Shown: positions 9,425-31,372 of the stretch, one piece after another | How the letters are laid out: each line of letters starts with the position of its first letter | How positions within the stretch are numbered: position 1 is the stretch's first letter | Assembly (NCBI RefSeq): GCF_002868735.1 | Contig: NZ_CP025612.1 | Span: 620,001 to 684,000, forward strand | From: Niveispirillum cyanobacteriorum | GTDB taxonomy: Bacteria; Pseudomonadota; Alphaproteobacteria; Azospirillales; Azospirillaceae | Reading direction: 5' to 3' | DNA length: 64,000 bases | Made by a program: the position numbers and the translations under genes | Notes under the pieces: generated by a model | Database searches by the model: none | Told to the model about the DNA's origin: nothing | What the model saw: the letters and a program-made list of their open reading frames with translations, nothing else

Positions 9425-10333
9425 CTAGTAGGACCCGTCCCTAACCGCCTTGATGTCGTTATCGGACAGGGGGCGCAGGACGATATTGCGGAAGCTGATT
9501 TCCGCAGCCTCGATCTCCAAGGCGATGCGGCCACCAGTGAGGGAACGCCATTCGGCGGGGTTATCCTCGCGCCGTGTGCGCATCGCGAACAGGGTCGTGA
9601 CGATCCGGCCATTCACCAGATGTGCGGCCTGGTCCCCGAATGCGATCAAATCAAGCTGGTTCCAGCTGTCCAGCCGCTCGAAATCGCCCGTCTTGCGGAA
9701 CCATTGGCGTTCGATCGGGCCGGCTTTGATGGGCGGCACATATTCACGCGGAAAACTGGGCGGATAGCTGGGCCACAGGGCTGTGCCGCCCAGGTTCGGA
9801 CCTTCCAGGGCCTGGGTGTTGATCATGATGGCGTCGCCGACATCCGTTTCCTCTACCTGGAATTCCACAGAATCAGGGTAGAGAACGCCGCGTGTGGCCT
9901 TCATATGGTAGAGGATGCCGCTGTTGCGCTTGGCCAGACGGCGCGGAGCGAACCGTCGTTCGCCCCATTTGAATTCCAGGCGCAGATGGTAGTTGCCATA
10001 TTCCTGCGCGGTGGCCAGATGGCCGAAACCGACCTTGCCATCCCCCTGAAATGTCGGCCCGAGCACATGCAGGGTCCCATCCTGGATATCCAGCACTCCA
10101 CCAGTATCGGTGTCGCCCACCCCGTCTTGAAAGAAGGTCCAGCCGGACAGGTCCTTGCCATTGAACAGCGGTATCCAGCCGGCCTCCGGGCCAGCTTGCG
10201 CCTGACGCATCGCGATGGGGGACAGGGCAGTGGCCAACGCGCCCCCCAATCCCATCCCCATCAGATGGCGGCGGGATATCGGTTGCGGCATGGCTGGCTT
10301 CCCTGGCAAGGCATGGGCGAGATTTGCCGACAT
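9425..10333 (-). CDS. Exported DUF1080 protein, 3-keto-glycoside hydrolase/lyase
   Basis: A concanavalin-like DUF1080 (3-keto-disaccharide hydrolase) protein of about 290-302 residues. This family cleaves glycosides whose sugar has been oxidised at C3. A twin-arginine signal is visible (SRRHLMGMGLGGALATA), so it is folded before export to the periplasm. The family opening GWIPLFNGKDLSGW follows, with the characteristic NSGILYH and VEFQVEE strands in mid-protein. Two starts are possible: 10333 or 10291 (MPQPISRR). It is the last gene of the operon that begins with the TonB receptor at 17040 and lies downstream of the SnoaL-like and GMC dehydrogenase genes, which fits oxidation followed by cleavage. 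Confidence 0.87.
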   Translation of the reverse strand: MSANLAHALPGKPAMPQPISRRHLMGMGLGGALATALSPIAMRQAQAGPEAGWIPLFNGKDLSGWTFFQDGVGDTDTGGVLDIQDGTLHVLGPTFQGDGKVGFGHLATAQEYGNYHLRLEFKWGERRFAPRRLAKRNSGILYHMKATRGVLYPDSVEFQVEETDVGDAIMINTQALEGPNLGGTALWPSYPPSFPREYVPPIKAGPIERQWFRKTGDFERLDSWNQLDLIAFGDQAAHLVNGRIVTTLFAMRTRREDNPAEWRSLTGGRIALEIEAAEISFRNIVLRPLSDNDIKAVRDGSY

Positions 10334-10339
10334 GCGCGA

Positions 10340-10783
10340 TTACGGACGAAGGCGATCGAAATAGGTGGCGGCCTGATCGGCTGTCAGTTCTTGTTTCAAA
10401 TCCCAATGTTCCCGGATCAGGCCATCCTGCCAGCGGAAGATATCCATCACCGCCGCGCGTATCCCGGTTCCGACACGCACATCCAGCATCACGATGGACA
10501 AGGCACCCTGATTGATGGTGCTGACAGGATGGATCAGGAAGTCCGGGCGCGCAAACATCGGTTCCAGCACCTTGATGGCGGCCTCGCGGCCCTGTGCCAT
10601 GCCGTTGCTATGCTGGATGTAATCGTCAGCGACATACTGTTCGAAGGCTTTGCGCACCTGCTTCTGCCGATAGAACAGGGTGCAGAACATGTCGAGTGCC
10701 GGCGGGGCCGTGGCCTGCGCCCCGCCCGCCGCCATCAGGGGCAGGATACCGGCCAGGGACAGGAACTGCTTTCGGTCCAGCAT
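10340..10783 (-). CDS. Exported SnoaL/NTF2-like protein
   Basis: A 147-residue protein with a signal peptide (LSLAGILPLMAAGGAQA) and a SnoaL-like alpha+beta barrel. The pattern YVADDYIQHSNGMAQGREAA and the FRWQDGLIREHWD strand are typical of the family. SnoaL relatives include cyclases, ketosteroid isomerases and hydratases. Here it lies 4 bases after the GMC dehydrogenase and 6 before the DUF1080 gene, so a role on the 3-keto sugar or on the released 2-hydroxyglucal-type product in the periplasm is plausible. The function is inferred from context only. Confidence 0.75.
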   Translation of the reverse strand: MLDRKQFLSLAGILPLMAAGGAQATAPPALDMFCTLFYRQKQVRKAFEQYVADDYIQHSNGMAQGREAAIKVLEPMFARPDFLIHPVSTINQGALSIVMLDVRVGTGIRAAVMDIFRWQDGLIREHWDLKQELTADQAATYFDRLRP

Positions 10784-10787: not shown

Positions 10788-12473
10788 TCAGATCCGCCCT
10801 TCCTTCAGCATCGTCACCGCCGTGTCACAGGCCCTGGCCGTCATGGCCATATAGGTCAGCGACGGGTTCTGACAGGCGGACGACGCCATGGCGGCACCAT
10901 CGGTCACAAACACGTTGGGCACGTCATGCAACTGGTTCCAGCGGTTGGTGACCGATGTGCGCGGATCATATCCCATCATGGCCCCGCCCATCTCATGGAT
11001 GGCACTGCCGCCCACGCCCGGACGGTTTAGCGACATGATCACCTTGCCGCCAGCGGCGGTCAGCATGGCGCTGGCCTCTTTCCCGGCGTCGGTCAGGGCC
11101 TTGTGCTCATTCTCGCCATGGGTGAAATCCACCTGCAGCAACGGCGCACCGAACTGATCCACCTTCACCGGGTCAAGGCGCAGACGGTTGGTTTCCCGCG
11201 GCAGGCTTTCGGCGAAGGTGACCAGCACCATGCGCCAGGGGCCGACATTGCGCAGGTTCTCCTTGAAGCCGGTACCAATGCCGGGTTCCCGCTTGCCGCG
11301 CGTCCAGGCACTGCGCAGTGCGCCGCCCTGGAAACTGTAGCCACGGACAAAATCCCCCTCGGCCTGGTCGCCCAGATTGCGGAAGCGGGGAATGATAATG
11401 CCCGTGGGTCGGTTGCCGAAGGTGGTGCGGTCCAGGAAACTGTCGAACAGGGCGATGGCCCCCACCGTGCTCGCATGGTCCATGATATGGGTGCCCAGCC
11501 GACCGCTGCTGTTTCCCAACCCGTTGGCAAACGCTGCGGAGCGGGAGCGCAGCAGGACATGGTTGGTGTTGAAGGCCCCGGCATTCATGAAAATGATGCG
11601 GGCGGTGTAGCGGCGACGCTCTCCCGTCTTCACATTCAATACCGACACACCGCTGGCACGCTTGGTCTTGGCGTCATAATCGACGGTTTCCACTACCGTG
11701 TCGGTGATCAGGGTCAGGTTGCCGGTGGCCTGCGCCGCCGGCAGGGTGGAACTCTGCGTGCTGAAATAGGCGCCATAGGAACAGCCGCGCTGACAGATCA
11801 TCCGGTTCTGGCAGGCACTGCGACCTTCCTTTTCTTGCGTCAGATTGGCTGTACGCCCGATGGTCAGGCGGCGGTCGGGCCATTTCTCCTCAATCGCGGC
11901 CTTGGCATGCTTTTCCAGCACGTTCAGCGCCATCGGCGGCTGATAGATGCCGTCGGGCAGGGATGACAAGCCTTCATTCTGCCCCGACACGCCGATGAAC
12001 CTTTCGACATGATCGTACCAGGGCTTCAGATCGGCATAGCGGATGGGCCAGTCGACGCCGTGCCCATCTTTCTTGTTGGCCCCGAAATCATGGTCGCTCA
12101 TCCGGTAGGATTGGCGACCCCAGGTCAGTGAGCGTCCCCCCAGTTGATAGCTGCGCCACCAGTTGAATTCCGTGCCTTCAGCTACCGAGTAGGGGTTTTC
12201 ACGGTCATTGACGAAATGATTCTGCGTATATTCGGTGAAATGCCGGTTCTTGGATTGAACGGCAAAGTCGGTCGCATAAAGCTGTGGATCACCCACGCCC
12301 CGAAACGGCATCTCCCAAGGGGATTTCATCTCGGTGACATAGTCGGTGCCATGTTCGATATGGCGGCCCCGTTCGACCATCAGAACCTTCAGGCCCTTTT
12401 CGGTCAGTTCCTTTGCCGCCCAGCCGCCGGTGATGCCGGAGCCAACGACGATGGCGTCGAAATCTTTGCTCAT
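10788..12473 (-). CDS. GMC-family FAD dehydrogenase, glucoside 3-dehydrogenase large subunit type
   Basis: A 561-residue FAD enzyme predicted to oxidise the C3 hydroxyl of a glycoside. It has the dinucleotide motif VVGSGITGG (residues 9-17) and the ERG of the FAD ribose site near 35-37. The C-terminal GMC domain carries the catalytic pair His493 (HEMGG) and Asn536 (QNPS). It has no signal peptide. The upstream gene, which overlaps it by four bases, encodes a Tat-targeted small subunit that probably carries it to the periplasm, as in gluconate 2-dehydrogenase and glucoside 3-dehydrogenase complexes. A cytochrome subunit is not encoded nearby. A cysteine-rich segment (ACQNRMICQRGCSYGAY) is also typical of this subgroup. 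Confidence 0.88.
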   Translation of the reverse strand: MSKDFDAIVVGSGITGGWAAKELTEKGLKVLMVERGRHIEHGTDYVTEMKSPWEMPFRGVGDPQLYATDFAVQSKNRHFTEYTQNHFVNDRENPYSVAEGTEFNWWRSYQLGGRSLTWGRQSYRMSDHDFGANKKDGHGVDWPIRYADLKPWYDHVERFIGVSGQNEGLSSLPDGIYQPPMALNVLEKHAKAAIEEKWPDRRLTIGRTANLTQEKEGRSACQNRMICQRGCSYGAYFSTQSSTLPAAQATGNLTLITDTVVETVDYDAKTKRASGVSVLNVKTGERRRYTARIIFMNAGAFNTNHVLLRSRSAAFANGLGNSSGRLGTHIMDHASTVGAIALFDSFLDRTTFGNRPTGIIIPRFRNLGDQAEGDFVRGYSFQGGALRSAWTRGKREPGIGTGFKENLRNVGPWRMVLVTFAESLPRETNRLRLDPVKVDQFGAPLLQVDFTHGENEHKALTDAGKEASAMLTAAGGKVIMSLNRPGVGGSAIHEMGGAMMGYDPRTSVTNRWNQLHDVPNVFVTDGAAMASSACQNPSLTYMAMTARACDTAVTMLKEGRI

Positions 12474-13078
12474 CCGAATTCCACCGCAGTCCAGTCGTTT
12501 GACCAGGCCCGATCCTTGGGGCCGACGGGGATGTCCGGGTCGAAGCGGCCCGGCACCAGTTCAAAACGCAACTCCTGGCTGGCGCCGATTTCCGACGTAT
12601 AATAGCCAGTGACGATCAGGCCCTTCAGCGTGCGCCAGGGCGATTTCTCGTTACCCCGCGTATAGGCCTGGGAATCCAGGTCGGTCAGCACCCTGACCTG
12701 CATGTCCGGGGTGGCCGACAGGAACGCCCGGCCCGCCTTGAGGTCCAGTTCAAATGACAGCCAATCCAGTAGACCGGCATCCGCCGGAGCCTTGCCGCCG
12801 GTGAAAAGTGCCGCTGCGACCGGCGCATTTGATCCCGATATTCCGTGCCCGATGGCAAGCGCCAGGAAGGCGGGAACGCCGGCCTTCACCGCACCCGGCG
12901 TGTCCGTATCGGGAAAAACCAGATCGCAGACACGGGCGACCAGGGTGCGGTGGCGGTCGGGCAGGGGGGCACCCGCTGCCACCTGTGCCCAAACATCCGC
13001 CGGGGTCAGGGCCAGCGCCATGCCCGACAGCAGCAGGCCACGGCGGCCAATACCGGCGCGCGATATCTCTTCCTGCAT
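12470..13078 (-). CDS. Tat-exported gluconate 2-dehydrogenase subunit 3-like protein
   Basis: Small subunit of about 202 residues that partners the GMC dehydrogenase. The start at 13078 follows a strong AGGAGA and gives a twin-arginine signal (IGRRGLLLSGMALALTP). The body matches the gluconate 2-dehydrogenase subunit 3 family: LVARVCDLVFPDTDTPGA followed by a helical region and a conserved C-terminal YYTSEIGASQEL segment. It overlaps the GMC gene by ATGA. Its role is to mature and export the catalytic subunit. The frame is open 22 codons further upstream, inside the esterase gene end, which is unlikely to be used. Confidence 0.88.
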   Translation of the reverse strand: MQEEISRAGIGRRGLLLSGMALALTPADVWAQVAAGAPLPDRHRTLVARVCDLVFPDTDTPGAVKAGVPAFLALAIGHGISGSNAPVAAALFTGGKAPADAGLLDWLSFELDLKAGRAFLSATPDMQVRVLTDLDSQAYTRGNEKSPWRTLKGLIVTGYYTSEIGASQELRFELVPGRFDPDIPVGPKDRAWSNDWTAVEFG

Positions 13079-13103
13079 CAAAACTCTCCTTCTCCGCCGA
13101 AGG

Positions 13104-14666
13104 TCAGAACAGGCCCAGTTTCCCGCCATTGGCCACGAAGGCACTGTAGACTTGGCGCTTGGCCGGGGACAAAGGTTCGATCACCCCGGTCCTGTCGCCA
13201 AGGCCCATTACGCGGCCATTCGCCAGGGCCGGCCATTCGGGCAGCCCGGCACCGTTCGGGTTGCCGCTCTTCACGAAATTGGCCCAGTACTGGCCCAGCG
13301 TCGCGGCGATGTCATGGTCCGCCTTGATGAAGGGGCGGGTGGATTTGTCCAGCGTGGCGAAAACATAGGGCAGTTCGGCGGAATGAAACGTGCCGAACCG
13401 GGCCGGATCGCTGCCGGGCTGCGGGTGCTGGAACAGATAGGCATAGACCGGGGCGGCACCGGGCTGCCGCGTCTGTGCCCAGATCAGCATGGAGGCGGTG
13501 GCCTGTTCGCGCAACAGGGCCCTGGCCGCCTCCCCTGCCGCCTTACCGTCACTCCCCTGATAGAAGGGGCGGAAGGACGGCGCCTGTGTGCCGAAGCGCC
13601 GGTCGATCAGGTCGTTCAGCTTGACCGACGTAGTCAGGTGCCAGTCATGCCCATTGCTGCTTTCATCCGTCGTCAGGCCGGTCAGGACGGGGATGTCCTG
13701 CCGCTGCCGCTCCGGGTCGGGCAGGACGGTGGGCTCAGTGATGGGAAAGAAGCGCAGGCCCGGCGGCCCGACGGACGGGTCCTTGGCTGCCTTGGCCAAC
13801 TGCTCGGGCGACAGGGCACGCAGGGCAGCGATACCGGTCACGCCGGCTGCGTTCATCACCTTCTGCCCCCGCGCCTCGGCATCAGACAGCGGCAGGCTGG
13901 GAATACCCATGCCGGACCCGCTTTGCGCGATGGCGCGGATGAACAGCCCGTCAGCCTTGGGCGACGACAGCAGCGCATGGACGGACGCAGCGCCTGCTGA
14001 CTGTCCGGCGATGGTCACCCGTTTGGGATCACCGCCGAAATTCGCGATATTCTTCTGGACCCAGCGCAGCGCCGCGACCTGATCCATCAAGCCATAATTG
14101 CCAGAAGACCCGGCTTCTGCGGTCAACGCTGGATGGGCCAGGAAGCCATATATGCCAACACGATAATTGATCGTGACGACGATGATGCCGCGCGCGGCCA
14201 GCTTCTCCCCATCATACAAGGGGACAGAACCAGAACCGCCCGCGAAACCGCCACCATGAATCCAGACCATCACAGAATGGCCGGCACCGCTGGCCCCCGA
14301 CGGGCGCCAGACGTTAACAGACAGGCAGTCCTCACTCATGGGGCGGGTTGGGAAATATTCCGCCGACCAGGGAGAACCGCCGGGCGGTGTATAAGGCGGG
14401 TCCTGCTGACAATCGGCACTGAACTGCGTCGCGTCGCGCACGCCGGACCATGCCGCAACAGGCTGCGGCGGGCGCCAGCGGTTGGCACCGCCGGTGTCAC
14501 CGGCATAGGGAATGCCCAGGAAACGATCGATACCGTTCTGGGTGGCCCCGGCCACACGCCCTGTCTCCGTCTCGGCCTCAGGGGCTACAGCCCCCGCCAT
14601 TGACGGCATGGAACACAGGGCCAGCAATGATGCACCAACCCGCAGAATGGAAAAACTCCACCGCAC
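13104..14666 (-). CDS. Secreted carboxylesterase type B (second)
   Basis: A 520-residue carboxylesterase-family hydrolase. The preferred start is a GTG at 14666, seven bases after GGGAGG, which gives the signal sequence RWSFSILRVGASLLALCSM with a SMAGA cleavage region. The nucleophile lies in GQSAGAAS, the oxyanion HGGG precedes it, and the later Glu (TTDESSNG) and His (TFHSAELPYVF) complete the triad. It is only distantly similar to the esterase at 3932. Position between the TonB receptor and the dehydrogenase subunits suggests removal of acyl groups from acylated glycosides before C3 oxidation. Confidence 0.87.
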   Translation of the reverse strand: MRWSFSILRVGASLLALCSMPSMAGAVAPEAETETGRVAGATQNGIDRFLGIPYAGDTGGANRWRPPQPVAAWSGVRDATQFSADCQQDPPYTPPGGSPWSAEYFPTRPMSEDCLSVNVWRPSGASGAGHSVMVWIHGGGFAGGSGSVPLYDGEKLAARGIIVVTINYRVGIYGFLAHPALTAEAGSSGNYGLMDQVAALRWVQKNIANFGGDPKRVTIAGQSAGAASVHALLSSPKADGLFIRAIAQSGSGMGIPSLPLSDAEARGQKVMNAAGVTGIAALRALSPEQLAKAAKDPSVGPPGLRFFPITEPTVLPDPERQRQDIPVLTGLTTDESSNGHDWHLTTSVKLNDLIDRRFGTQAPSFRPFYQGSDGKAAGEAARALLREQATASMLIWAQTRQPGAAPVYAYLFQHPQPGSDPARFGTFHSAELPYVFATLDKSTRPFIKADHDIAATLGQYWANFVKSGNPNGAGLPEWPALANGRVMGLGDRTGVIEPLSPAKRQVYSAFVANGGKLGLF

Positions 14667-14705
14667 CTGACACCTCCCGACACCGATGACTGCTTCAAGC
14701 CGAAT

Positions 14706-14738
14706 ATGGATACCGGGGGACGAACCCCCGGTATCCAT
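14706..14738 (-). terminator. Perfect 14-bp hairpin between TonB receptor and esterase genes
   Basis: Arms ATGGATACCGGGGG (14706-14719) and CCCCCGGTATCCAT (14725-14738) with a 5-base loop, 19 bases after the TonB receptor stop. There is no T tract in either direction. Because the operator lies upstream of the receptor and the downstream genes have no obvious promoter, it may trim expression or protect the receptor mRNA rather than end transcription. Confidence 0.5.
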
Positions 14739-14757
14739 GATCACAGCCAACAGCGGA

Positions 14758-17040
14758 TCAGAAGCGGTAGGTGCCCTGCACGCCAAACGTACGCGGCGGG
14801 CCATAGATGGAGTTATAAATCAGCGAACCGGCGGCAGCGTTGAAGTTTGCAAAGGCCAGCGGCTGCTTGTCCTCCAGATTGCGGACATAGGCCTGGACTG
14901 TATAGTTGCCGTCTGCGGAGTTATATTCGACCGACAGGTCGGTCATCATATAGCCCTTCTGGCGCATACCGGCCCAGTTTACGACCGACAGGTAATGGGC
15001 AGCCTTGTAACGGCTGAAGGCCGAGGCGACCACGTTCGATCCGTCGCCCAGGTCGAACGTGTGGCTGTAACCGGCGGACAGGGTCCATTTCGGGGCCTGC
15101 GGCGGACGATTGCCCTTCAGGTTGAACTGCTGGATGCCGGGGGTGACTGGATCGGCATCGTTGATCGGGGTGCCATTCACACCAATCAGCGAGGTCGCGA
15201 AATTCAGAACCTTGGCATCCAGATAATTGACGGTGAAGGACAGTTCGTCATTCTCCGTCAACAGGACGCTGGTGTCGGTCTCGACACCCCAGACACGCGA
15301 CTTACCAGCGTTCAGTGTGCGGGCGCCGACGTTGTTGTCCACGAATACCTGGATCTGCTGATCCTTGTAGTCATAGTAGAAGGCAGAGGCATTGAACTGC
15401 AGGCGGCCACCATTGAACCGGTTCTTGGTACCCACTTCGTAGGCAATCAGTTCTTCCGGCTCATAGGCACCGACGCTGTCGAAACCGCCGCTTTTATACC
15501 CGGTGCTGAGCTTGCCATAGACCAGGCTGTCGTCTGCGGGCTTCCAATCGATGCCGATATTGCCCGTTACCTGATCAGAGGAAGAACGCGGGCGCAGTAT
15601 GGTGGCGCCAGCAGAACCAAACGCCGGCGGGGTCGTGCCCTCGCCACGGCCAAAACGCGGGCCGTAATTGTAGAAGGTGGCGCTCTTGGCGTCGTCGGTA
15701 TAGCGCAAGCCGCCGGTCACCGTCAGCTCCGGACCGGCCACCGGGACCGTGACCTGACCAAAGGCGGCCTTGGACTTGGAAACGATATCCGGACGGTAGA
15801 AATAATTCAGGAAGGCGCGCGGCAGTTCCAGATACAGGCCGCGCGACAGATCGACCTTCTCATGGAAGTAGAAGCCGCCAAGCTGATAGAACAGGCCGTT
15901 ATCCAGCGTATTCGACAGGCGCAGCTCGTGGCTCTGTGTCTCTGAATTCAGCTTATTGTTGCGGAAGGTGAAGGTCGCGGGCAGATAGCCGTTCAGCGGC
16001 AGGGCGCTGTTGGTTTCATTATCGCGATAGCCCCCCAAATAGGCCAGCGTGCCCAGGTCAAAATCAACCTCGATCCGACCGCGCAGAGCAAACTGCTCGC
16101 TGTTGAAATTGCCCAAATCACCCAGCGGGAAATTACGGGTATTGATGCCGCTGAAGGTCAGGTTGGCGGGAATGCCGTTATTTTCAAACGCGGTGGTCGA
16201 CGGAATGGCGTCGATTACTCCGGCGGAATAGGCGGCATTGGTCAGAACACCGTTCTGGGCCACCAGGATGCCGAACTGCGACGGCGGCAGCTGATCGACA
16301 TTCACATACTCGCCGGCCAAATAAGTGCGGATATTCTCGGTGGGTTCCCAGGCGATGGCGAGGCGGGCTGCATCGACATTCTGGTCCTCGCCACGGCCGA
16401 CGGCGCCATGCTTGCGATAGCCCTTGTGGTCGGTATGCATGCCGGCGACGCGGACGGCAACCGTATCCCCCAGCGGCACATTGACGGCACCTTCGGCCCG
16501 CTTGGCATCGAAATTACCATAGCCGACGGTCAGGAAGCCGGCGGTCTTGCCCAGCTGCGGCTTAGCCGCGATGATGTTGATGGCGCCGGCGGTCGCGTTG
16601 CGACCATAGAGGGTGCCCTGTGGACCGCGCAGAACCTCGATCCGCTCCAGATCGAAGAAGCTGGCATTCAGCGCGACGGGGCGGTTCACATATTCACCAT
16701 CAATGCCGATGGTCAGGGCGGGGTCGGATGCTTCAGAAACATCCTGGCTGGACACGCCGCGCACCGAAATCTTCGTGAAGATCGTGTCATTGGTCACGTT
16801 AAGATCGGGCGCAATGCGCGCCAGACCATTCACGTCCGACACGCCGGACTTGACCAGATCATCGCCTGTGAAAGCACGGATCGCGATGGGCGTATCCTGC
16901 AGATTGGTCGCGCGCTTGGTCGCGGTCACCACAATCTCTTCCAGGACCAAAGCATTATTGCTGTCGGCCTGGGCCATGGCGGAAGCGGCATGAAGGGTAG
17001 TCGCCCCTGCTGCAAGCAGGAGCATCGAACGGATGCGCAT
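14758..17040 (-). CDS. TonB-dependent outer-membrane receptor of the glycoside regulon
   Basis: A 760-residue receptor, first gene of the minus-strand unit that continues to 9425. The start at 17040 gives the signal peptide MRIRSMLLLAAGATTLHAAS with AMAQ cleavage, then VLEEIVVTATKRATNLQDTP, the TonB-box and plug entry. IEVLRGPQGTLYGRNATAGA marks the plug, and the barrel ends in TYRF with a C-terminal Phe. A TetR gene is divergent and a palindrome lies 63-80 bases before the start. It probably brings (acylated) glycosides into the periplasm for the esterase, GMC dehydrogenase and DUF1080 enzymes. Confidence 0.93.
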   Translation of the reverse strand: MRIRSMLLLAAGATTLHAASAMAQADSNNALVLEEIVVTATKRATNLQDTPIAIRAFTGDDLVKSGVSDVNGLARIAPDLNVTNDTIFTKISVRGVSSQDVSEASDPALTIGIDGEYVNRPVALNASFFDLERIEVLRGPQGTLYGRNATAGAINIIAAKPQLGKTAGFLTVGYGNFDAKRAEGAVNVPLGDTVAVRVAGMHTDHKGYRKHGAVGRGEDQNVDAARLAIAWEPTENIRTYLAGEYVNVDQLPPSQFGILVAQNGVLTNAAYSAGVIDAIPSTTAFENNGIPANLTFSGINTRNFPLGDLGNFNSEQFALRGRIEVDFDLGTLAYLGGYRDNETNSALPLNGYLPATFTFRNNKLNSETQSHELRLSNTLDNGLFYQLGGFYFHEKVDLSRGLYLELPRAFLNYFYRPDIVSKSKAAFGQVTVPVAGPELTVTGGLRYTDDAKSATFYNYGPRFGRGEGTTPPAFGSAGATILRPRSSSDQVTGNIGIDWKPADDSLVYGKLSTGYKSGGFDSVGAYEPEELIAYEVGTKNRFNGGRLQFNASAFYYDYKDQQIQVFVDNNVGARTLNAGKSRVWGVETDTSVLLTENDELSFTVNYLDAKVLNFATSLIGVNGTPINDADPVTPGIQQFNLKGNRPPQAPKWTLSAGYSHTFDLGDGSNVVASAFSRYKAAHYLSVVNWAGMRQKGYMMTDLSVEYNSADGNYTVQAYVRNLEDKQPLAFANFNAAAGSLIYNSIYGPPRTFGVQGTYRF

Positions 17041-20727: not shown

Positions 20728-20744
20728 TGAACAAGGGAGGAAAA

Positions 20745-23571: not shown

Positions 23572-24891
23572 TTATGCCTGCCGTTCCGGCCAGAAGCCGA
23601 TGCAGACGATCTGGGCCGCGATGGCCAGCATGGCGGGCGCGTAATACAGCACATGCACCATCCGCTTCGCCTCGTCGCTGACCGCCGCCGGGTCATAGCC
23701 GGCCTGGGCCAGACCGAAGGCAACAATGGCACCGCCCACCGCCATGCCGACCTTGATCGACAGATTGACGCCGGCAGCCAGCAGCCCTTCATTGCGGGTG
23801 CCGAACTGCGCCTCGTGATAATCCACGACCTCCGCCCCCATAGCGAAGATGGCGGTCATGGAAATGCTGATCAGGATTGAGGACAGGATGTAGACGGTCA
23901 GGAACAGGGCGGGCACCGTCTCTGTGAAGGGTAGGGCGGCATAAAGCACCAGGGCCGCCGCCAACGCCACCCGGTTGCCCGTGCGCATGCCCAACCGCTT
24001 CAGGAAGGGCGGTGCGATGGCAGATCCAATTAGCAAGGTGCCCGACACAGCCGGCAGCAGGATGGAGATCATCCAGGGTTGTTTCAGGATATTGATGGCG
24101 AAATAGGCCGTGACCGACAGCACTGCACCGAACCGGATGAAGTTCAGGCAGGCAAAACCAAACACGACCAGCCATGCACGGTTACGCAGCATGTCGCGGA
24201 TGGAAGACAGGCTGGTTTCCTGCTGACCCGTTGGTGGCGGCACCACCTCCCGGCAACTGGCAAAAAGGTTCAGGGTCAGAAGCACCGTCACCGCCGCCAT
24301 CAGGATCGCGACCCACAGGAACCCCTTGGCCTGATCACCGTCGCCCAGTGCCTGGACCAGCGGCATTGTGGCTGCCGTGGCCACAATCACCGACAGGGCG
24401 GTGCCGGCGGCCCGCAGGCTGCCCAACTGCACCCGTTCATCCTGCCGCACCGTCATCATCGGCATCAGTGCGCCATACGGGATGTTCACGATGGAATAGA
24501 GCAGGCCCAGAATGACGAAGCTGACGCACGCCCACAGTAATTTGCCCGTCCCATCCAGCGGCGGAACATAGAAGCTGGCGACACAGAACAGGCCGAAGGG
24601 GATCGCACCGAACAGGAAATAAGGCCGCACGCGGCCCCAGCGGCTGCGCGTCCGGTCTACCGCCAGACCCACAACAGGGTCAAACGCCGCATCCAGCAGG
24701 CGAGACAGCAGGAACAGCGTCCCCACCACGCCTACCGGCAGCAGCGCCACATCGGTGTAGAAATACAGCAGAAACGCCCCAACCATGTTCCAGGTCAGGC
24801 CGAAACCGAAATCCCCCGCGCCATAGCTGATCTTGGCCCGCCAGGACAGCGGCGGGGCGGCGATGCCGCCCCCCTCTTGGTTGATCGACAT
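23572..24891 (-). CDS. GPH-family glycoside/sugar:cation symporter
   Basis: A 439-residue inner-membrane carrier of the glycoside-pentoside-hexuronide family, with about 12 hydrophobic segments. The N-terminal KISYGAGDFGFGLTWNMVGA and the loop segment FDPVVGLAVDRTRSRWGRVRPY are hallmarks of the family. It is the last gene of a minus-strand unit of MFS, TIM barrel and GPH carriers. It may bring intact glycosides to the cytoplasm for the deglycosidase. Confidence 0.88.
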   Translation of the reverse strand: MSINQEGGGIAAPPLSWRAKISYGAGDFGFGLTWNMVGAFLLYFYTDVALLPVGVVGTLFLLSRLLDAAFDPVVGLAVDRTRSRWGRVRPYFLFGAIPFGLFCVASFYVPPLDGTGKLLWACVSFVILGLLYSIVNIPYGALMPMMTVRQDERVQLGSLRAAGTALSVIVATAATMPLVQALGDGDQAKGFLWVAILMAAVTVLLTLNLFASCREVVPPPTGQQETSLSSIRDMLRNRAWLVVFGFACLNFIRFGAVLSVTAYFAINILKQPWMISILLPAVSGTLLIGSAIAPPFLKRLGMRTGNRVALAAALVLYAALPFTETVPALFLTVYILSSILISISMTAIFAMGAEVVDYHEAQFGTRNEGLLAAGVNLSIKVGMAVGGAIVAFGLAQAGYDPAAVSDEAKRMVHVLYYAPAMLAIAAQIVCIGFWPERQA

Positions 24892-24911: not shown

Positions 24912-25679
24912 TTACAGGCCCAGCGTCTTGCGCGCTTGGGTCAGGCCTTCCAGCGTCGGGCCGGTCGGCTTGTATTCCAGGCCGATGGCCCCCTGGTAGC
25001 CCAGGTCGCGCAGAATGCCGATGTAACGCGGCCAGTCGATGGTGCCGCTGCCCGGCTGATGCCGGCCCGGCACGTCGGCCACCTGCACATGCCCGACCAG
25101 ATGGAACCGTCCCGCCAGAACCTGGGCCGGGTCCTCTCCCATCACGGTGGAATGGTACATGTCGTAGAGCAGGCGCAGGTTGGGGCTGTTCACGGTTTCC
25201 ACCATGTCCAGCCCTTCAGTCGTGCTGACCAGATACATGCCGGGATGTTCGACCCGGTCATTCAGCGGTTCCAGCAGCAGCAGGATGCCCGCTTCCTCTG
25301 CCAGGGTCGCTGCCTGACGCAGAGCCGTGACTGCGGCATCGAAATGATCCTGTCGCGGCACATCGGGCCGGGTGAAACCAGATGCGACGACCAGGGCCGG
25401 CGCACCCGCTTCCTTTGCAGCGATCAGGCTGTCGCGAACGGCAGCCAGGAATTCCCCATGCTGGGCCGGATCAACGATGCTGCGGCGCGGTTCGACCACG
25501 AAACTGGCCAGCTTCACCCCGGTCTCTTCCAGGGTCTGGCGGATTTCCGACAGCGGCTTGTCACGCCACAGGTGGAATTCCACCGCGTCAAGGCCGGCTG
25601 CCTTGGCTGCGCGGATACGGTCGGTGAAAGTGGGATTTTCGGCGGCGAACAGCCACTCTATACAGGCGGCGAGGTACAT
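24912..25679 (-). CDS. Hydroxypyruvate-isomerase-like TIM-barrel enzyme
   Basis: A 255-residue xylose-isomerase-like TIM barrel, closest in length and layout to hydroxypyruvate isomerase (Hyi) and related sugar epimerases. The start at 25679 (MYLAACIEWLF) is six bases after GGAGG; an ATG at 25700 is less well placed. Metal-ligand candidates are the Glu in LLLEPLNDR, the Asp in LLYDMYHS, the His in HVQVADVPGRHQ and the Glu in GLEYKP. It lies between two sugar-type transporters under operator 27062. A role in isomerising a keto sugar or a C3 product is inferred; the exact reaction is unknown. Confidence 0.83.
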   Translation of the reverse strand: MYLAACIEWLFAAENPTFTDRIRAAKAAGLDAVEFHLWRDKPLSEIRQTLEETGVKLASFVVEPRRSIVDPAQHGEFLAAVRDSLIAAKEAGAPALVVASGFTRPDVPRQDHFDAAVTALRQAATLAEEAGILLLLEPLNDRVEHPGMYLVSTTEGLDMVETVNSPNLRLLYDMYHSTVMGEDPAQVLAGRFHLVGHVQVADVPGRHQPGSGTIDWPRYIGILRDLGYQGAIGLEYKPTGPTLEGLTQARKTLGL

Positions 25680-25797
25680 GATGTCCTCCAGACGGGACAT
25701 GTTTGACCGGCGACCACCCGGGGCGGTCACCGGCGGCCCGCGCATGCGAACCTGGCGCCGAAGCGCTAAAACAGCAATGTCCGAAGGCCGGGGCCGA

Positions 25798-27027
25798 TCA
25801 GTATTTCGGCCCCGTATCCTGCGTACCTTTCAGCAGCGCCAGTAGGGCGACAGCCGCACCGACCAGGGCGATGATACCCATGACCAGGAATGCAGCCTGA
25901 ACCGTTCCGTTTGTCATCGACTTGGCCCCGGCGACAAAGAACGGGCTGGTGAACTGCCCCAGGAAGAAGCAGGAGGCCCATACACCCATGCCACGCCCGC
26001 GATGGGCAAAGGGCAGCTTGCTCTGCGCCCAGGAAATCAGGGTGGGGACGGTGACGCCCGCAGCGGCCTGCTGAATGACGAGGAACGCCATCATCCATTT
26101 ATAGTCCGGCGCCATGCCGATACCGGCCAGACCGATCCCCAGCATTCCGAAGACGCACAGCAGCTGCAAAGACGTGTTGCGCATGCCCATCCAGCCGAAG
26201 ATCAGCGCGCCGACCGGCACCGCCAGACTGGCCATGGAGATCAGGGCACCGGTGCGGGCCGGCGTGTCGATGCCAACCTCGCGGAAGGCCAGACCACCCT
26301 GAATAATGAAGACGTAATAGAGGGAGGAGGCGAACAGTGTCACAGCGCCGTACACCATTACAGCGCGCACGGGGAACGCCGTCGCTTCGGCTGTTTCCGC
26401 ATCCGTCCTGGCCGTTGCCGGTGCCTTGACGGGTTCAAAGATCATGAAATACATGCCGACAAAAATCGGCAGGGCGATCAGGTAGATCAGAAACACACCG
26501 TTCCAGCTGATCCCCGTCAGCACGCCCGACAACGCGATAACGCCCGACGCCATGGCGGGTCCGGCCAGCCCCTGGAACATCAGTACCCGCCGACGCCCCT
26601 TGGCATCGTAATAGTCGGCGATCAGGGTGTTGACGATGGTCAGGATCGCCGCCTCCGTCACGCCCAGCAGCAGGCGGGACGCGATGACCGCATGCAGGCT
26701 GTCCAGGAAATAGGGCAGGGAACCGGCAATCGCATAGAAGAAGGTCGCCCAGACTAGCAGAGGCCGCCGGCCGAACCTGTCCACCAGCATGCCGGCGAAT
26801 GGCGCCAGGATTGCGATGGCGAGACCCGGAGCCGAAACCAACACCGGCACCAGCAGGGAGGCATTCGCCACATCCTTGAAATGATCAAGAATGGTGGGCA
26901 CCGCCGGCGTCAACGACACAATGGCCAGAATCGGCAGGAAGCCGCTGATCACCAGAATGATGGCTTGGGCAATGCCCGCTTTGCGCACGTCGCCGGATAC
27001 CGGCGCCGTGATGGCCTGATCAGCCAT
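25798..27027 (-). CDS. MFS transporter
   Basis: A 409-residue major-facilitator protein with about 12 membrane segments and the loop motif GMLVDRFGRRPLL. The start at 27027 follows GGGAGG; the open frame further upstream crosses the operator and is unlikely to be translated. It is first in the minus-strand unit with the Hyi-like enzyme and the GPH carrier. The substrate may be a glycoside or an aglycone breakdown product. Confidence 0.87.
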   Translation of the reverse strand: MADQAITAPVSGDVRKAGIAQAIILVISGFLPILAIVSLTPAVPTILDHFKDVANASLLVPVLVSAPGLAIAILAPFAGMLVDRFGRRPLLVWATFFYAIAGSLPYFLDSLHAVIASRLLLGVTEAAILTIVNTLIADYYDAKGRRRVLMFQGLAGPAMASGVIALSGVLTGISWNGVFLIYLIALPIFVGMYFMIFEPVKAPATARTDAETAEATAFPVRAVMVYGAVTLFASSLYYVFIIQGGLAFREVGIDTPARTGALISMASLAVPVGALIFGWMGMRNTSLQLLCVFGMLGIGLAGIGMAPDYKWMMAFLVIQQAAAGVTVPTLISWAQSKLPFAHRGRGMGVWASCFFLGQFTSPFFVAGAKSMTNGTVQAAFLVMGIIALVGAAVALLALLKGTQDTGPKY

Positions 27028-27061: not shown

Positions 27062-27079
27062 ACAGAATTATGATTCCAA
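27062..27079. promoter_or_regulatory. Operator site D of the AGAA-N6-TTCT regulon
   Basis: ACAGAATTATGATTCCAA agrees with site B in 14 of 18 positions (the first nine are identical), with one half-site degenerate. It is 35 bases before the MFS start and belongs to the minus-strand promoter of this divergent interval. Confidence 0.68.
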
Positions 27080-27212: not shown

Positions 27213-27230
27213 TCAGAATAGCAATTCTAA
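27213..27230. promoter_or_regulatory. Operator site E of the AGAA-N6-TTCT regulon
   Basis: TCAGAATAGCAATTCTAA has the repeat AGAAT-AGCA-ATTCT, 81 bases before the monooxygenase start. It faces site D across the same interval, so both divergent units are probably repressed together. Confidence 0.68.
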
Positions 27231-27310
27231 TTCGAAAGCCATGGACGCCGTGACCGTACCCCTGAACGGGGCGCTGCCGGAACGCACCGATGGCCGCACA
27301 GGAGGAAACC

Positions 27311-28417
27311 ATGCGTTTTTCGACCTTTCTGAATGCCCGCTGCATGGGTGAGGAACAGGACCGCGACTTGTTGCTGGATCTGGTGGAGCATGTGGAGCGT
27401 GCGGAGGCAGCGGGATTCGACGCTGTTTTCCTGCCCGATCATCATTTCACCGGTTATATGCCCATGGCGTCCGATCCGATGATGTTTGCCGCCTATCTGG
27501 CCGCGCGGGTCAAGCGCATGCATTTCGGCTTCTCCGTGACCACGGTTCCGCTGCACCATCCCGTCCGGTTTGTTGAGCGCGTGAACATCCTGGATCAACT
27601 GACGGAGGGCCGTCTGCTCGTCGGTGTCGGCAGCGGCACGACACCGGAGGAGATGATCGGCTTCGGCGTTAACTACAAGGAAGCGTCGCGTCTGGCGGAA
27701 GAAAACCTGGCCATTGCCGAGCAGCTTTGGGCCAAGAAGGCTGAAGAAGCGCCCGTGACTTTCGACAATGGCCATTACAAGGGTGAGGTGGTGCAACGCA
27801 TCGCCCCTGTCGCCTACACGCCCGGCCATGCCCGGCTGATGCCGGTGGCGATGAAGGAAAGCAGCGCACGGCGCGCCGCACAGTTCGGTTGGCCCGCCTT
27901 CATCCCGGCCTTCACCCCGCCGCAGATCGGCGGGACCGAGCCGTTCAAGCATGTGCAGAAATTCTTCACGATCTATCGTGATCTGCTGCTGGCTGCCGGG
28001 CATTCCGCTGAACGCGTTGCCGATGCCCTGTCCTGGACCACGCACACCTATCAGTGTGTTCATATTGCAGAGACGGATGAACAGGCCCGCGCCGAGCTGG
28101 AGGAAATCCTCACGGACTATCAGGCCGCGGTGGAGCGTGAGGCTGCTTTTAATGCCAAGGCAGAGGCGACGGAAGCCAACAAGAAGACCGACCGCACGCC
28201 CAATGCCCTGACCGACGACTGGATCGGCACCTGGTGCCTCTATGGCAGCCCGGAGACGGTGATTGAGCATCTGAAGCCCTATCAGGAACTGGGCATCGGC
28301 AATGTGCTCTGCGGCCTGCTGACCGGTCCGCTGACCGCCAAACGCAAGGCGTACGCGAACCAGACCATGGATTATCTGTCGCGCGTCGTCATGCCCGCTT
28401 TGAAGGGGGGTGCGTGA
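27311..28417 (+). CDS. Luciferase-like (LLM class) flavin-dependent monooxygenase
   Basis: A 368-residue TIM-barrel flavoprotein of the bacterial luciferase class, using reduced FMN and oxygen. The start at 27311 is preceded by AGGAGGAAACC. The N-terminus MRFSTFLNARCMGEEQDRD and the segments VFLPDHHFTGYMP and LLVGVGSGTTPEEM are typical of the alkanesulfonate/limonene-type LLM group. The next gene, overlapping as TGATG, encodes a flavin reductase that would supply FMNH2. In this regulon the likely substrate is the aglycone or a fragment of it; this is inference. Confidence 0.87.
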   Translation: MRFSTFLNARCMGEEQDRDLLLDLVEHVERAEAAGFDAVFLPDHHFTGYMPMASDPMMFAAYLAARVKRMHFGFSVTTVPLHHPVRFVERVNILDQLTEGRLLVGVGSGTTPEEMIGFGVNYKEASRLAEENLAIAEQLWAKKAEEAPVTFDNGHYKGEVVQRIAPVAYTPGHARLMPVAMKESSARRAAQFGWPAFIPAFTPPQIGGTEPFKHVQKFFTIYRDLLLAAGHSAERVADALSWTTHTYQCVHIAETDEQARAELEEILTDYQAAVEREAAFNAKAEATEANKKTDRTPNALTDDWIGTWCLYGSPETVIEHLKPYQELGIGNVLCGLLTGPLTAKRKAYANQTMDYLSRVVMPALKGGA

Positions 28418-28977
28418 TGGCAAAACCGCTGATCGTCGGGTTCGGGGGTACCACCCGACCCGGCTCGTCCGGGGAGCGGATGGTGGCTGCCGTTCTGGCG
28501 GCAACCGAGCAGCTGGGTGCTGAAACCCGCCTGTTCGGTGGCGCCGCATTGGCCGCCATGCCGCATTTCGCCCCGGAGAATCCGGGCCGCACGGTGGAGC
28601 AGATCGAGTTTGTGGAGGCGGTGCGCGCCGCCGACGGCATCGTCATCGGGAGCCCCGGCTACCATGGCGGCGTGTCAGGTCTGGTGAAGAATGCCATCGA
28701 CCTGCTGGAGGATCTGCGTACCGACGCCCGCGTCTATTTCGACGGGCGCGCTGTGGGCCTGATCGTGACGGCGGCGGGGTGGCAGGCAGGCGGGGTAACC
28801 CTGTCCGCCCTGCGCAGCATCACCCACGCCATGCGCGGCTGGCCCACGCCGCTGGGCATCGCCATCAACACAATCGCGCAAAAGCCGTTTGATGCCGATG
28901 GCCGTCTGGTCGATGCCGATATCATCGCGCAGGTGAATGCCCAGGCTGCACAGGTCATGGCGCTGGCGCGGCGCTAA
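28417..28977 (+). CDS. NADPH-dependent FMN reductase
   Basis: A 186-residue flavodoxin-like reductase. The FMN-phosphate loop is GGTTRPGSSGERM (residues 9-21), and the IGSPGYHGGVSGLVKNAID segment near residue 75 is the hallmark of the SsuE/NADPH-dependent FMN reductase family. The ATG shares bases with the monooxygenase stop (TGATG), so the two are probably made in step as a two-component monooxygenase. A GTG one codon upstream is an alternative. Confidence 0.88.
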   Translation: MAKPLIVGFGGTTRPGSSGERMVAAVLAATEQLGAETRLFGGAALAAMPHFAPENPGRTVEQIEFVEAVRAADGIVIGSPGYHGGVSGLVKNAIDLLEDLRTDARVYFDGRAVGLIVTAAGWQAGGVTLSALRSITHAMRGWPTPLGIAINTIAQKPFDADGRLVDADIIAQVNAQAAQVMALARR

Positions 28978-29008
28978 ACAACGATAAGCTCCTATCGGGG
29001 AAGAACCC

Positions 29009-31372
29009 ATGTCCACCCATCCGCTTGATCTCGCGGCGCTGACCAGTGGCCGCGACATGTGGTCCACGGCCGCACTGCCCGGCATCCGTTCCATCATGAT
29101 GGCCGATGGGCCCATGGGTATCGCGTCGGGACGCGTCGATGAACGCGATGTTGCGGTGCTGACGCCCTGTGGCACGGCGCTGGGCGCCAGTTTTGATGCC
29201 GATCTGGTGGCGCGGGTAGGGGCGATTGTGGGTATGGAGGCGCGACGCCTGGGCGTCGATGCCGTTCTGGCCCCCAATCTGAACCTGCAGCGCAGCCCGC
29301 TTTGCGGTCGGGCGTTTGAGCTTTATGGCGAAGACCCGTTTCTGGCGGGGCATTTGGGTGCCGCTTGGATCAGCGGTTTGCAGGGCCAGGGTGTCGGTTC
29401 CGTCGCCAAGCATCTGGTCTGCAATGACAGCGAGACCGACCGCGACAGCATGAATGCGGTCGCCAGCGACCGCGCCCTGCATGAATGCTACTTGCTGCCA
29501 TTCGAAATGGCGGCGGCGGCGGGATGTGTGGGCATGCTGGCTGCCTATAACCGCCTGAATGGCGATTATTGCGTGGAGCATAAGGAACTTCTAACCGACA
29601 TCGTGAAGGGCGAATGGGGCTTCACCGGCTTCATCGTGTCTGATTGGTTCGGTGGACGCGATACCTTGCGGTCGGCCCATGCCGGGCTGGATCTCGACAT
29701 GCCGGGGCCGGACCGGGTGCTTGGCACCAAGTTCGCAGCGGCGGTACGCGACGGACAGGTGCCGTTGGAACGGCTGGCCGATGCCACGGGCCGCGTGGCC
29801 AACGCCGTTGCCCGTATCGACGCCCTGCCGCGTCAGGCGCCGATCGTTGATCCCGATGCCACATTGGTGGAGGCTGCGGCGGCTGGCTTCGTCCTTCTGA
29901 AGAATGATGGCGACGTTCTTCCGGTTTTCCCCAAACGGGTCCGCCGCATCGCCATCATCGGCCCCAATGCTGCCAGCCCCTGTTTGCAGGGCGGCACCTT
30001 CGCCAAGATCGCCGTTCGTCCCGATTTCGTCACTCCCTTGCAGGCCGTCCGTGACCGGTTCGGTGACAAGTGCGAAGTGCTGTATGAACAGGGTGTGGAG
30101 CCGGAATACCGCCTGCCGCCGATTAGCGCCACGCCCGCCCGCGATCTGGGCGACGGGGCCACGCGCGGCCTGACGGTTGAATGGCTTCCGGCGGACGGCG
30201 ACACGCCTGTCCACGCCGAAACCCGTGACACCAATTCCCTGACCTGGTTCGTGGGGCTTCCGGGCACCGACGCCCTGAAACTGCCTGGGCGCATCCGCGC
30301 TACCGGATGGATCACCCCGGAACGCAGTGGCCCGCATCGCCTGCATGTTGGCGGTACCGGTCCGGTCACGCTGTCGGTTGATGGCGAACAGGTCTTTGCC
30401 GGCGGTGGCCCGGTCTCCCCATCGGACCTGATGGGCATTCTGAAGGGTGGCGACAGCCAGTCGGTGGTTGTGGACCTGAAGGCGGGGCAGCCCGTGCTCC
30501 TGCGTTTCGAATTGACCTACACCCCCGCTCGCGCGCAAGGCTTGTGGTACGGCGTGCGTGGTCCGGACCTGCCTGAAGCGATGCTGGCGCGCGCCGTTGC
30601 CGCCGCCGCCAAGGCCGATCTGGTCCTGCTGATGCTTGGTGAGACAGCGGATGCCGGTGTGGAAAGCAAGGACCGTGCGGGCACTGCCCTACCGGCAGCG
30701 CAGATCGATCTGATCGATCGTATCCGGCATGTGAATACCAACATTGTCGCCATCTGCAACGTCGCCCACGCCTTCGACCTCTCCTGGCAGGACAAGGTGC
30801 GCGGCCTGATGATCACTTGGTATCCGGGTGAGCAATATGGCCCGGCCCTGGCCCAGGTCTTGGCCGGCGATCGTGAACCAGGCGGGCGCCTACCCATCAG
30901 CATCGCCGCCCGCGACGCCGATTACCCCGCCTTCGACCTGAAGCCGCAAGCCGGTGGTGCCGTGCCGTACCGGGAAGGCCATTTGATCGGCTACAAGGGC
31001 ATGCAGGCGGCGGGAAACGATCCGCTGCATGCCTTCGGCACCGGTTTCGGCTATGCGCACTTCGACCTGCTGGAAGCGGCGGTGGCGGGGGAAACGGCGC
31101 AGGGTGTTGTGGTTTCCGTGCAGATACGCAATCTGTCGGACCGGCCCGGTAAGGCCGTGCCCCAGGCCTATGTCGCGGGGGCGGACGGTGTGCGTCATCT
31201 GTGGGCCTTTGCCGCTGTCACGGTGCCGGCGGGCGAAACGGTGGATGTCAGCCTGATCTTGCCACCGCGCGCCTTTCAGCATTGGGACGGCGGTTGGAAG
31301 ACAACGGGACCGCATCAGGTCCTTATCGGCTGGAACAGCCGCGATCTGCCATTCTCCTTCCAGATCGGGTAA
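29009..31372 (+). CDS. Cytoplasmic GH3 beta-glycosidase with inserted PA14-like domain
   Basis: A 787-residue glycoside hydrolase family 3 enzyme. The N-terminal barrel carries KH (134-135) and the nucleophile Asp212 in FIVSDW; the second domain begins near residue 285 (GFVLLKNDGDVLP). A PA14-like beta module (about 370-520) interrupts the second domain, and a fibronectin-III-like domain closes the protein. There is no signal peptide, so it acts in the cytoplasm on imported glycosides. It is third in the operon with the monooxygenase pair, under operator 27213. It probably removes O-linked glucose from the same plant compounds. Confidence 0.9.
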   Translation: MSTHPLDLAALTSGRDMWSTAALPGIRSIMMADGPMGIASGRVDERDVAVLTPCGTALGASFDADLVARVGAIVGMEARRLGVDAVLAPNLNLQRSPLCGRAFELYGEDPFLAGHLGAAWISGLQGQGVGSVAKHLVCNDSETDRDSMNAVASDRALHECYLLPFEMAAAAGCVGMLAAYNRLNGDYCVEHKELLTDIVKGEWGFTGFIVSDWFGGRDTLRSAHAGLDLDMPGPDRVLGTKFAAAVRDGQVPLERLADATGRVANAVARIDALPRQAPIVDPDATLVEAAAAGFVLLKNDGDVLPVFPKRVRRIAIIGPNAASPCLQGGTFAKIAVRPDFVTPLQAVRDRFGDKCEVLYEQGVEPEYRLPPISATPARDLGDGATRGLTVEWLPADGDTPVHAETRDTNSLTWFVGLPGTDALKLPGRIRATGWITPERSGPHRLHVGGTGPVTLSVDGEQVFAGGGPVSPSDLMGILKGGDSQSVVVDLKAGQPVLLRFELTYTPARAQGLWYGVRGPDLPEAMLARAVAAAAKADLVLLMLGETADAGVESKDRAGTALPAAQIDLIDRIRHVNTNIVAICNVAHAFDLSWQDKVRGLMITWYPGEQYGPALAQVLAGDREPGGRLPISIAARDADYPAFDLKPQAGGAVPYREGHLIGYKGMQAAGNDPLHAFGTGFGYAHFDLLEAAVAGETAQGVVVSVQIRNLSDRPGKAVPQAYVAGADGVRHLWAFAAVTVPAGETVDVSLILPPRAFQHWDGGWKTTGPHQVLIGWNSRDLPFSFQIG

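Follow-up and report, generated by a model that had tools for sequence, protein, structure and literature searches.

A predicted C-glycoside deglycosidase island of Niveispirillum cyanobacteriorum and a putative palindromic operator shared by its gene units

C-glycosides resist ordinary glycosidases. We analyzed a window of 64,000 nt from Niveispirillum cyanobacteriorum (positions 620,001 to 684,000 of contig NZ_CP025612.1, hereafter G000:C2:620001-684000), whose genome comprises 6.05 Mb in five contigs, and focus on an island at 9425–31372 of this window that contains a predicted C-glycoside deglycosidase (CGD) with alpha and beta subunits. An original prediction had described the island as 22 kb of glycoside catabolism genes: a deglycosidase pair, a Gfo dehydrogenase, further barrels, a GMC dehydrogenase, a DUF1080 enzyme, an esterase, a GH3 glucosidase, transporters and a TonB receptor. 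Pfam searches of 20 selected open reading frames (ORFs; 5566–31372) supported every one of these genes. They also revealed genes absent from the prediction, encoding a second TonB-dependent receptor, a SnoaL-like protein, a TetR-family regulator, and a luciferase-like monooxygenase with an FMN reductase. Several ORFs were overlong when read from the first start codon, and starts were reset by eye from visible ribosome-binding sites (TonB receptor, 17040; dehydrogenase small subunit, 13078; hydratase, 20745; MFS transporter, 27027; monooxygenase, 27311).

CGD alpha is encoded at 22087–23091 on the forward strand (ORF 22048–23091). It belongs to AP_endonuc_2 and is a predicted C–C beta-eliminase of the Mn-dependent TIM-barrel type. 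CGD beta (23104–23496, forward) matches PF19906 with an E-value of 8.6e-42, and such adjacency of a TIM barrel and a PF19906 protein is what marks members of the CGD/CGE family. A sequence search of the PDB with alpha gave nine matches at E ≤0.1. The top eight (1.7e-117 to 3.9e-31) all have a partner chain or fused half that matches CGD beta, whereas the ninth, the first other barrel, reached only 0.0016. It had been asked whether the pair might align better to TIM barrels other than deglycosidases; this ranking answers the question, and the proposed identity stands. The best match, 8qvc_A (presumably from Deinococcus aerius; E 1.7e-117), is identical at 175 of 327 positions (53.5%). Also among the eight are 7exz, 7exb and 7dnm, the depositions for PuCGD, EuCGD and AgCGD2 (PMC8563793). 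Alignment with PuCGD (7bvr_A, E 9.6e-38) sets alpha residues E144, H146, D176, H260, K262, E296 and E298 opposite E141, H143, D173, H263, K265, E299 and E301, all seven identical. In AgCGD2 the metal ligands are Glu147, Asp179, His269, Lys271 and Glu305, and the catalytic residues are His149 and Glu307 (PMC8563793). Transferring these by way of the PuCGD alignment (6 subtracted from each AgCGD2 number, an inferred register that agrees with PuCGE His143; PMC8563793, PMC10628242) gives E144, D176, H260, K262 and E296 as metal ligands of window alpha, and H146 and E298 as its catalytic residues. One difference was seen: Tyr303 of PuCGD alpha, part of the aglycone pocket, corresponds to N300. The beta subunit has a YYRG motif, with Y33 at the place of PuCGE Tyr39beta as judged by a constant offset rather than by a printed PuCGD beta alignment. 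Alpha is 100% and 99% identical to proteins on contigs labelled Niveispirillum sp. and Alpha proteobacterium AAP38. By family, the 22087/23104 pair is almost certainly a CGD, and we predict that it cleaves the C–C bond of 3-oxo C-glucosides.

Directly before CGD on the forward strand lie genes for a Gfo enzyme and a hydratase. The hydratase (20745–21797; ORF 20706–21797; AP_endonuc_2) is identical to 8ro4_A at 257 of 350 positions (73%), over its full length. That entry is named 2-hydroxy-3-keto-glucal hydratase, and there is little doubt that the window protein belongs to the same family, which acts in the step after CGD; its hydration activity is putative. The sugar product of CGD is hydrated and then reduced to glucose (PMC12101588), and the Gfo/Idh/MocA oxidoreductase (19576–20727, forward) fits the role of final 3-keto-glucose reductase. 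Assignment of this protein as a DgpA was rejected, as its best DgpA-type chain scored 2.4e-10 (range to 5.7e-7) and its best PDB match, 3v5n, 1.9e-113.

Another AP_endonuc_2 barrel, at 24912–25679 on the reverse strand (ORF 24912–25745), resembles hydroxypyruvate isomerase (TIGR03234, 2.9e-49, below cut-off). All 31 sequences compared share E159, D195, H198, Q221 and E257; position 161, the second after E159, is L, V or A in every one and never His. The structure model (pLDDT 93) has 3ngf, 1k77 and YcjR as its closest folds among the matches listed. A role as an AtOGE-like O-glycoside beta-eliminase was rejected because the catalytic His is absent from all 31 sequences and the fold is nearest to Hyi/OtnI-type entries and YcjR; no entry named OGE was found among 50 of the 1891 fold matches. 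YcjR is a 3-keto-glucoside 4-epimerase, and the barrel may handle a keto sugar, judging from its modeled fold. Thus both of the 'two more xylose-isomerase-like barrels' of the original prediction are present, but one is the hydratase of a known pathway and the other is hydroxypyruvate-isomerase-like without the catalytic His.

On the reverse strand, a GMC dehydrogenase (10788–12473) adjoins a Gluconate_2-dh3 small subunit (12470–13078; ORF 12470–13144) with a twin-arginine translocation (Tat)-like start. Among solved structures, the GMC protein is closest to the large subunits of fructose and glucose dehydrogenases. Fructose dehydrogenase scored 6e-35, and the pyranose and C-glycoside oxidase entries 8qve and 7qf8 only 2e-7 and 8e-7; we therefore rejected the protein as a PurA/CarA-type C-glycoside oxidase. 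A periplasmic glycoside 3-dehydrogenase of LacABC type consists of a GMC large subunit, a Tat-bearing Gluconate_2-dh3 small subunit and a cytochrome c subunit, and is regiospecific for C3. The GMC large subunit and the Tat-like small subunit are both seen here. Tat-like starts occur in 33 of 37 small-subunit homologues and all five DUF1080 homologues, compared to 0/38 for GMC, 0/24 for the esterase and 0/35 for GH3 (counts from a stricter pattern bound to the start; a looser one gave equal values of 33/37 and 5/5). We propose that GMC 10788 and its small subunit form an exported glycoside 3-dehydrogenase. Also on this strand are a carboxylesterase, probably exported (13104–14666; ORF 13104–14804; PF00135, 3e-108; GTG start 14666 set by eye), a SnoaL-like protein, probably exported (10340–10783), and a member of the DUF1080/3-keto-disaccharide hydrolase family with a Tat-like start (9425–10333; PF06439, 3keto-disac_hyd, 5e-32), for which the structure model (pLDDT 48) was discarded.

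The transporters and TonB receptors expected for uptake were also found by Pfam. A TonB-dependent receptor lies at 14758–17040 (reverse; ORF 14758–17262), with a ribosome-binding site at the reset start. The second (6889–9282, reverse; ORF 6889–9612) runs in the direction of its neighbors, its membership of their unit being uncertain. Two MFS transporters are encoded, a DHA2-type protein at 18097–19563 (forward; ORF start 18067) and another at 25798–27027 (reverse). A GPH-type glycoside/cation symporter (TIGR00792, above cut-off) lies at 23572–24891 (reverse). The TetR-family regulator is at 17326–18006 (forward). At the right end, on the forward strand, are the luciferase-like flavin monooxygenase (27311–28417; ORF 27290–28417; PF00296, 1.5e-44), its FMN reductase partner (28414–28977; PF03358, 1.4e-23) and the GH3 glycosidase (29009–31372), in which no signal peptide was seen. 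Perfect long hairpins at 21813–21848 (between hydratase and CGD), 23532–23558 (between CGD beta and the convergent symporter) and 14706–14738 (between TonB receptor and esterase) look like terminators dividing these genes into units.

To see which genes accompany CGD elsewhere, we scanned one genome per species (84,980 species) with an alpha-subunit pattern. We kept 80 of the 81 relatives that this returned; they lie in 79 loci. Hosts include Azospirillaceae, sphingomonads, Burkholderiales, Pseudomonas, Pantoea, Pluralibacter and a few distant phyla. Homologues of the window genes were counted in flanks of up to 10 kb per side; neighboring genes were also clustered, with a codon-position filter against antisense frames. 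CGD beta was matched in 78 of the 79 loci, followed by the Hyi-like barrel (55), TetR (54), GPH (52), MFS 25798 (51), Gfo (49), the hydratase (HYD; 43), TonB receptor 14758 (43), GMC (37), the small subunit (36), the monooxygenase (35), GH3 (34), MFS 18067 (30) and FMN reductase (24). Less frequent were the second TonB receptor (20, at 22–27% identity), the esterase (19), SnoaL (13) and DUF1080 (4), while the MFS gene at 5566 was matched in 0/79. These counts are lower bounds, since 15 of the 79 loci are ≤19 kb long, and those for transporters, TetR and TonB receptors are less telling because the families are large. A ThuA-family gene with no match in the window lies near CGD in L030 (7647–8627, the representative) and 21 further loci.

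Co-occurrence was also evident at the level of whole genomes. PF19906 is present in 11 of 82 genomes of the order. A GMC protein of at least 67% identity was found in exactly these 11 and in 0/71 others; weaker relatives (≤50% identity, and one fragment at 54%) occur among the latter. In 10 of the 11, no more than 35 kb separates the GMC gene from CGD; the remaining genome, an 860-contig assembly, has it on a separate contig. TetR, at E 1e-30, was likewise found in precisely the 11 genomes with CGD, at distances of 5 to 29 kb. Of the 82 genomes, 10 have the monooxygenase at E 1e-50; all of them are among the 11 with CGD and none among the 71 others, and the gene is 3.8 to 20.2 kb away from CGD. 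HYD is present in 52 of the 82, including all 11. Fisher tests against CGD, uncorrected for kinship, gave 7e-14 for GMC (3e-5 within the two genera concerned, 11/11 versus 0/7), 5e-12 for the monooxygenase (2.5e-4 within the two genera) and 0.006 for HYD.

A search for palindromes in the intergenic gaps yielded TAGAATnnnnATTCTA, a pattern found in these data and then tested on them. Five sites in the window match it at ≤2 mismatches, versus a mean of 0.36 and a maximum of 3 in 200 shuffles. Each precedes a gene or unit of the island: the TonB receptor starting at 17040 (17104–17119, two mismatches); the MFS-Gfo-hydratase unit headed by MFS 18097 (18039–18054, exact core, within the perfect 18-bp palindrome ACAGAATnnnnATTCTGT at 18038); CGD alpha at 22087 (21929–21944, exact core); the MFS/isomerase-like/GPH unit headed by MFS 27027 (27063–27078, two mismatches); and the monooxygenase/FMN reductase/GH3 unit at 27311 (27214–27229, exact core). 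The 6.05-Mb genome has four copies of the exact core, AGAATnnnnATTCT, three of them in the island. Across the genus, 22 core sites were counted in six CGD genomes, and 18 of these lie no more than 30 kb from CGD on its contig; five CGD-free genomes have one in total. The core read backward, as a control, gave 7 sites in these 11 genomes versus 23 for the core itself.

The pattern extends to the related loci. We counted 205 sites in the 79 loci, versus 11.6 in shuffles and 7–29 for six control palindromes (spacer-shifted, scrambled), noting that the loci are related to one another and the sites thus not independent. At distances of ≤300 bp, the palindrome precedes CGD alpha in 45 of 78 loci, where 0.4 would be expected, and the monooxygenase in 20 of 35, where 0.15 would be; it also precedes TetR in 15/54, Gfo in 10/45 and MFS 18067 in 6/29. 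No site was seen within this distance for CGD beta (0/71), HYD (0/43), GH3 (0/38), GMC (0/39), FMN reductase (0/23) or the esterase (0/16). Extending the limit to 600 bp, sites precede CGD alpha in 45 loci, MFS 25798 in 25, the monooxygenase in 20, TetR in 18, the TonB receptor in 17, a second CGD beta in 14, the GMC small subunit in 13 and Gfo in 10. Eleven of the sites fall within the cores of genes, and for 14 no labelled gene is close by. By these sequence statistics, a single palindrome, TAGAATnnnnATTCTA, is a predicted operator common to five units of the island, and TetR 17326 is the natural candidate for the protein that binds it. To our knowledge, this operator is not known from the Dgp or Dfg clusters of gut Firmicutes.

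What the monooxygenase does is less evident from its relatives. It recurs in 35 of the 79 loci, across several orders, and its solved relatives are distant and name no substrate. Together with FMN reductase it would most likely oxygenate the freed aglycone, although this is a weak inference.

The original prediction had the island lead from uptake 'to aglycone breakdown'. This part was not borne out within 9425–31372, where no ring-cleavage gene was identified. In sister strains (L023, L024), CGD has as its neighbors the genes of an FAD monooxygenase, a glyoxalase-type dioxygenase, an alpha/beta hydrolase, an FAA hydrolase and a cyclase. Among the 79 loci, 22 match the FAD monooxygenase and 14 the dioxygenase. 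The genome analyzed here has relatives of these genes (79% and 85% identity for the FAD monooxygenase and the dioxygenase) grouped at C2:691.6-697.2 kb (L104:8648-14170), at a distance of 48 kb from CGD beta and 7.6 kb past the end of the window. The L104 dioxygenase resembles catechol 2,3-dioxygenases, and the module is a probable flavonoid A-ring meta-cleavage operon. It also has a small 2Fe-2S protein and a PF04199 cyclase. In its FAD monooxygenase, glyoxalase-type extradiol dioxygenase and alpha/beta hydrolase it is like the fde/ifc route for the flavonoid A-ring (PMC11069340, PMC11303751), a likeness of gene make-up, for a module outside the window. The dioxygenase is not exclusive to CGD genomes: of nine genomes in the genus that encode it, six have a CGD and three lack one.

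The same genome has a second CGD pair at C2:547.2-548.6 kb (locus L003:2358-16400, C2:540.4-554.4 kb), closest to the fused CGD-type chain 8qrz (3e-111) and to EuCGD (3e-57). Its neighbors include a GH106 rhamnosidase, GH1, an esterase, TonB receptors, TetR and a GMC protein, and in its alpha subunit the metal His appears to be Gln, as in 8qrz. Two kinds of CGD in one genome may, speculatively, serve different glycosyl positions. Neither L003 nor the L104 module has an operator site at ≤2 mismatches. Among the 79 loci, 19 (L037, L042, L044, L047 and others) have a second, divergent CGD alpha/beta pair near the first. These never have the monooxygenase (0/19 versus 35/60; Fisher 1.8e-6, uncorrected for kinship and flank length).

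We consider it probable that the island encodes a regulated, non-hydrolytic pathway for C-glycosylated plant polyphenols, and probably for O-glycosylated ones as well. Its genes fit a series of oxidation, elimination, hydration and reduction, as in a C-glycoside version of the Agrobacterium O-glucoside pathway. Glycosides would enter through one or both TonB receptors, and the exported GMC/small-subunit dehydrogenase would oxidize the glucose at C3 in the periplasm. A GPH or MFS carrier would bring the 3-keto glycoside across the inner membrane. CGD alpha/beta, identified by sequence, would then eliminate the aglycone from C1, leaving 2-hydroxy-3-keto-glucal, to which the hydratase, identified likewise, would add water to form 3-keto-glucose, and Gfo would reduce this to glucose. 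DUF1080 and the esterase may trim O-linked and acyl groups, and TetR acting on TAGAATnnnnATTCTA would switch the units jointly. That an exported dehydrogenase is linked to a cytoplasmic CGD had been part of the original prediction, and it is supported by genome co-occurrence, the Tat-like small subunit and the operator shared in 13 loci. More tentatively, and as something we would not yet call likely, the island may represent an unrecognised proteobacterial regulon, in which a TetR-type operator controls a Tat-exported glycoside 3-dehydrogenase, CGD, hydratase, reductase and, as a partner of CGD, a monooxygenase that performs a new step on the C-glycoside or aglycone.

Oxidation might instead be cytoplasmic, as in the gut bacterium PUE, with Gfo oxidizing the imported glycoside and being recycled by reduction of 3-keto-glucose, and with GMC reserved for O-glycosides. 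The gut pathway enzyme DgpA belongs to the Gfo family (PMC8563793), D3dgpA oxidizes glycosides with a 3-oxo-glucoside as acceptor (PMC11239390), and the island Gfo gene precedes those of hydratase and CGD on the same strand. Yet the DgpA-chain scores are weak beside that of 3v5n, close GMC homologues are found in every CGD genome of the order and in no other, and the operator precedes the GMC small subunit in 13 of the 79 loci. On this evidence we regard a cytoplasmic first step as unlikely. A different possibility concerns the substrate: the locus could serve mainly O-glycosides of polyphenols, with CGD a broad 3-keto-glycoside eliminase and C-glycosides a side activity. PuCGE acts on both kinds, of which O-glycosides are the predominant one in plants (PMC10628242); GH3, DUF1080 and the esterase also fit O-linked or acylated substrates. 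But an O-only eliminase without a beta subunit would then suffice, whereas the beta subunit and tyrosine tied to C–C cleavage (PMC10628242) are kept here, and in sister strains CGD is accompanied by a ring-cleavage module of flavonoid type. A locus mainly for O-glycosides seems somewhat unlikely. Finally, the island contains common catabolic families on both strands, as would a loose neighborhood of sugar genes with no common function. We find this highly improbable. The grouping is more than chance, since the genes recur around CGD in the 79 loci, in rearranged order in Azospirillaceae, sphingomonads, Burkholderiales and Pseudomonas/Pantoea, and share an operator; GMC, TetR and the monooxygenase also co-occur with CGD across genomes.

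Several observations weigh against a regulated C-glycoside pathway that begins in the periplasm. Because PuCGE cleaves O-glycosides as well (PMC10628242), the natural substrate of the island CGD may be of either kind. The PDB match of the GMC subunit to sugar dehydrogenases is only distant, and no cytochrome was found among the 20 ORFs scanned at 5566–31372. With flanks of ≤10 kb, only 37 of the 79 loci match GMC and only 43 match HYD; HYD is general, as it is also present in 41 of the 71 CGD-free genomes, and DUF1080, matched in 4/79 loci, is not a core part. The absences of GMC and TetR from CGD-free genomes are not absolute, as some genomes had more candidates than the 17 or 35 that were scored. 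Regarding control, the window site nearest tetR (17264) has three mismatches, and a nearby tetR showed no significant link with a site before CGD in 64 long loci (29, 6, 19, 10; p 0.15). The operator at 17104 may not control the esterase-GMC-DUF1080 genes, since the perfect 14-bp hairpin at 14706–14738 separates them from the TonB receptor.

The logic of the pathway has precedents. Agrobacterium tumefaciens uses a four-enzyme route in which GlycDH oxidizes C3, OGE eliminates, and hydration and Gfo reduction follow (Bitter et al. 2023, PMC10628242). The puerarin operon of PUE is regarded as analogous, with predicted oxidation, elimination, hydration and reduction (PMC10628242), so the combination of CGD, hydration and reduction is not new in itself. 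The island resembles the GlycDH/OGE/HYD/Gfo system in its four-step logic, hydratase, Gfo and candidate FAD oxidase (PMC10628242). It differs in having a two-subunit CGD rather than a single-subunit OGE and a third barrel without the eliminase His, and it adds transporters, TonB receptors, a Tat subunit, a monooxygenase and an operator. PurABC and CarABC of soil actinobacteria similarly join an FAD enzyme to CGD for C-glycosides; PurA, however, uses oxygen (PMC12724307), whereas the island GMC is nearest to fructose/glucose dehydrogenases and has a Gluconate_2-dh3 partner. In sequence space, C-glycoside oxidases overlap with pyranose oxidases (PMC10807413). PurABC homologues have been counted in Pseudomonadota too (PMC12724307), so other proteobacteria may use a PurA-type oxidase. 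The Dgp and Dfg clusters share CGD alpha/beta and the active site with the island, but as described, their first step is catalyzed by a Gfo enzyme, with no exported GMC and no outer-membrane uptake (PMC8563793, PMC10628242). Among the open-access literature, which omits most subscription papers, we found no description of the full gene set (the operator was not searched for). This agrees, for the full set, with the original prediction, which knew of no such described alphaproteobacterial locus, but the parallel A. tumefaciens O-glucoside operon is described (PMC10628242).

The CGDs characterized in these reports come from gut Firmicutes and soil actinobacteria; homologues in Proteobacteria had been noted, and merely listed (PMC8563793, PMC12724307). 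The locus described here offers a complete candidate set for Gram-negative bacteria associated with plants or water, covering uptake, regulation and the sugar steps, together with an exported candidate for the first enzyme. The operator provides a handle for finding further genes of the pathway in other genomes, and the island also offers for study an oxygenase that has no assigned step.

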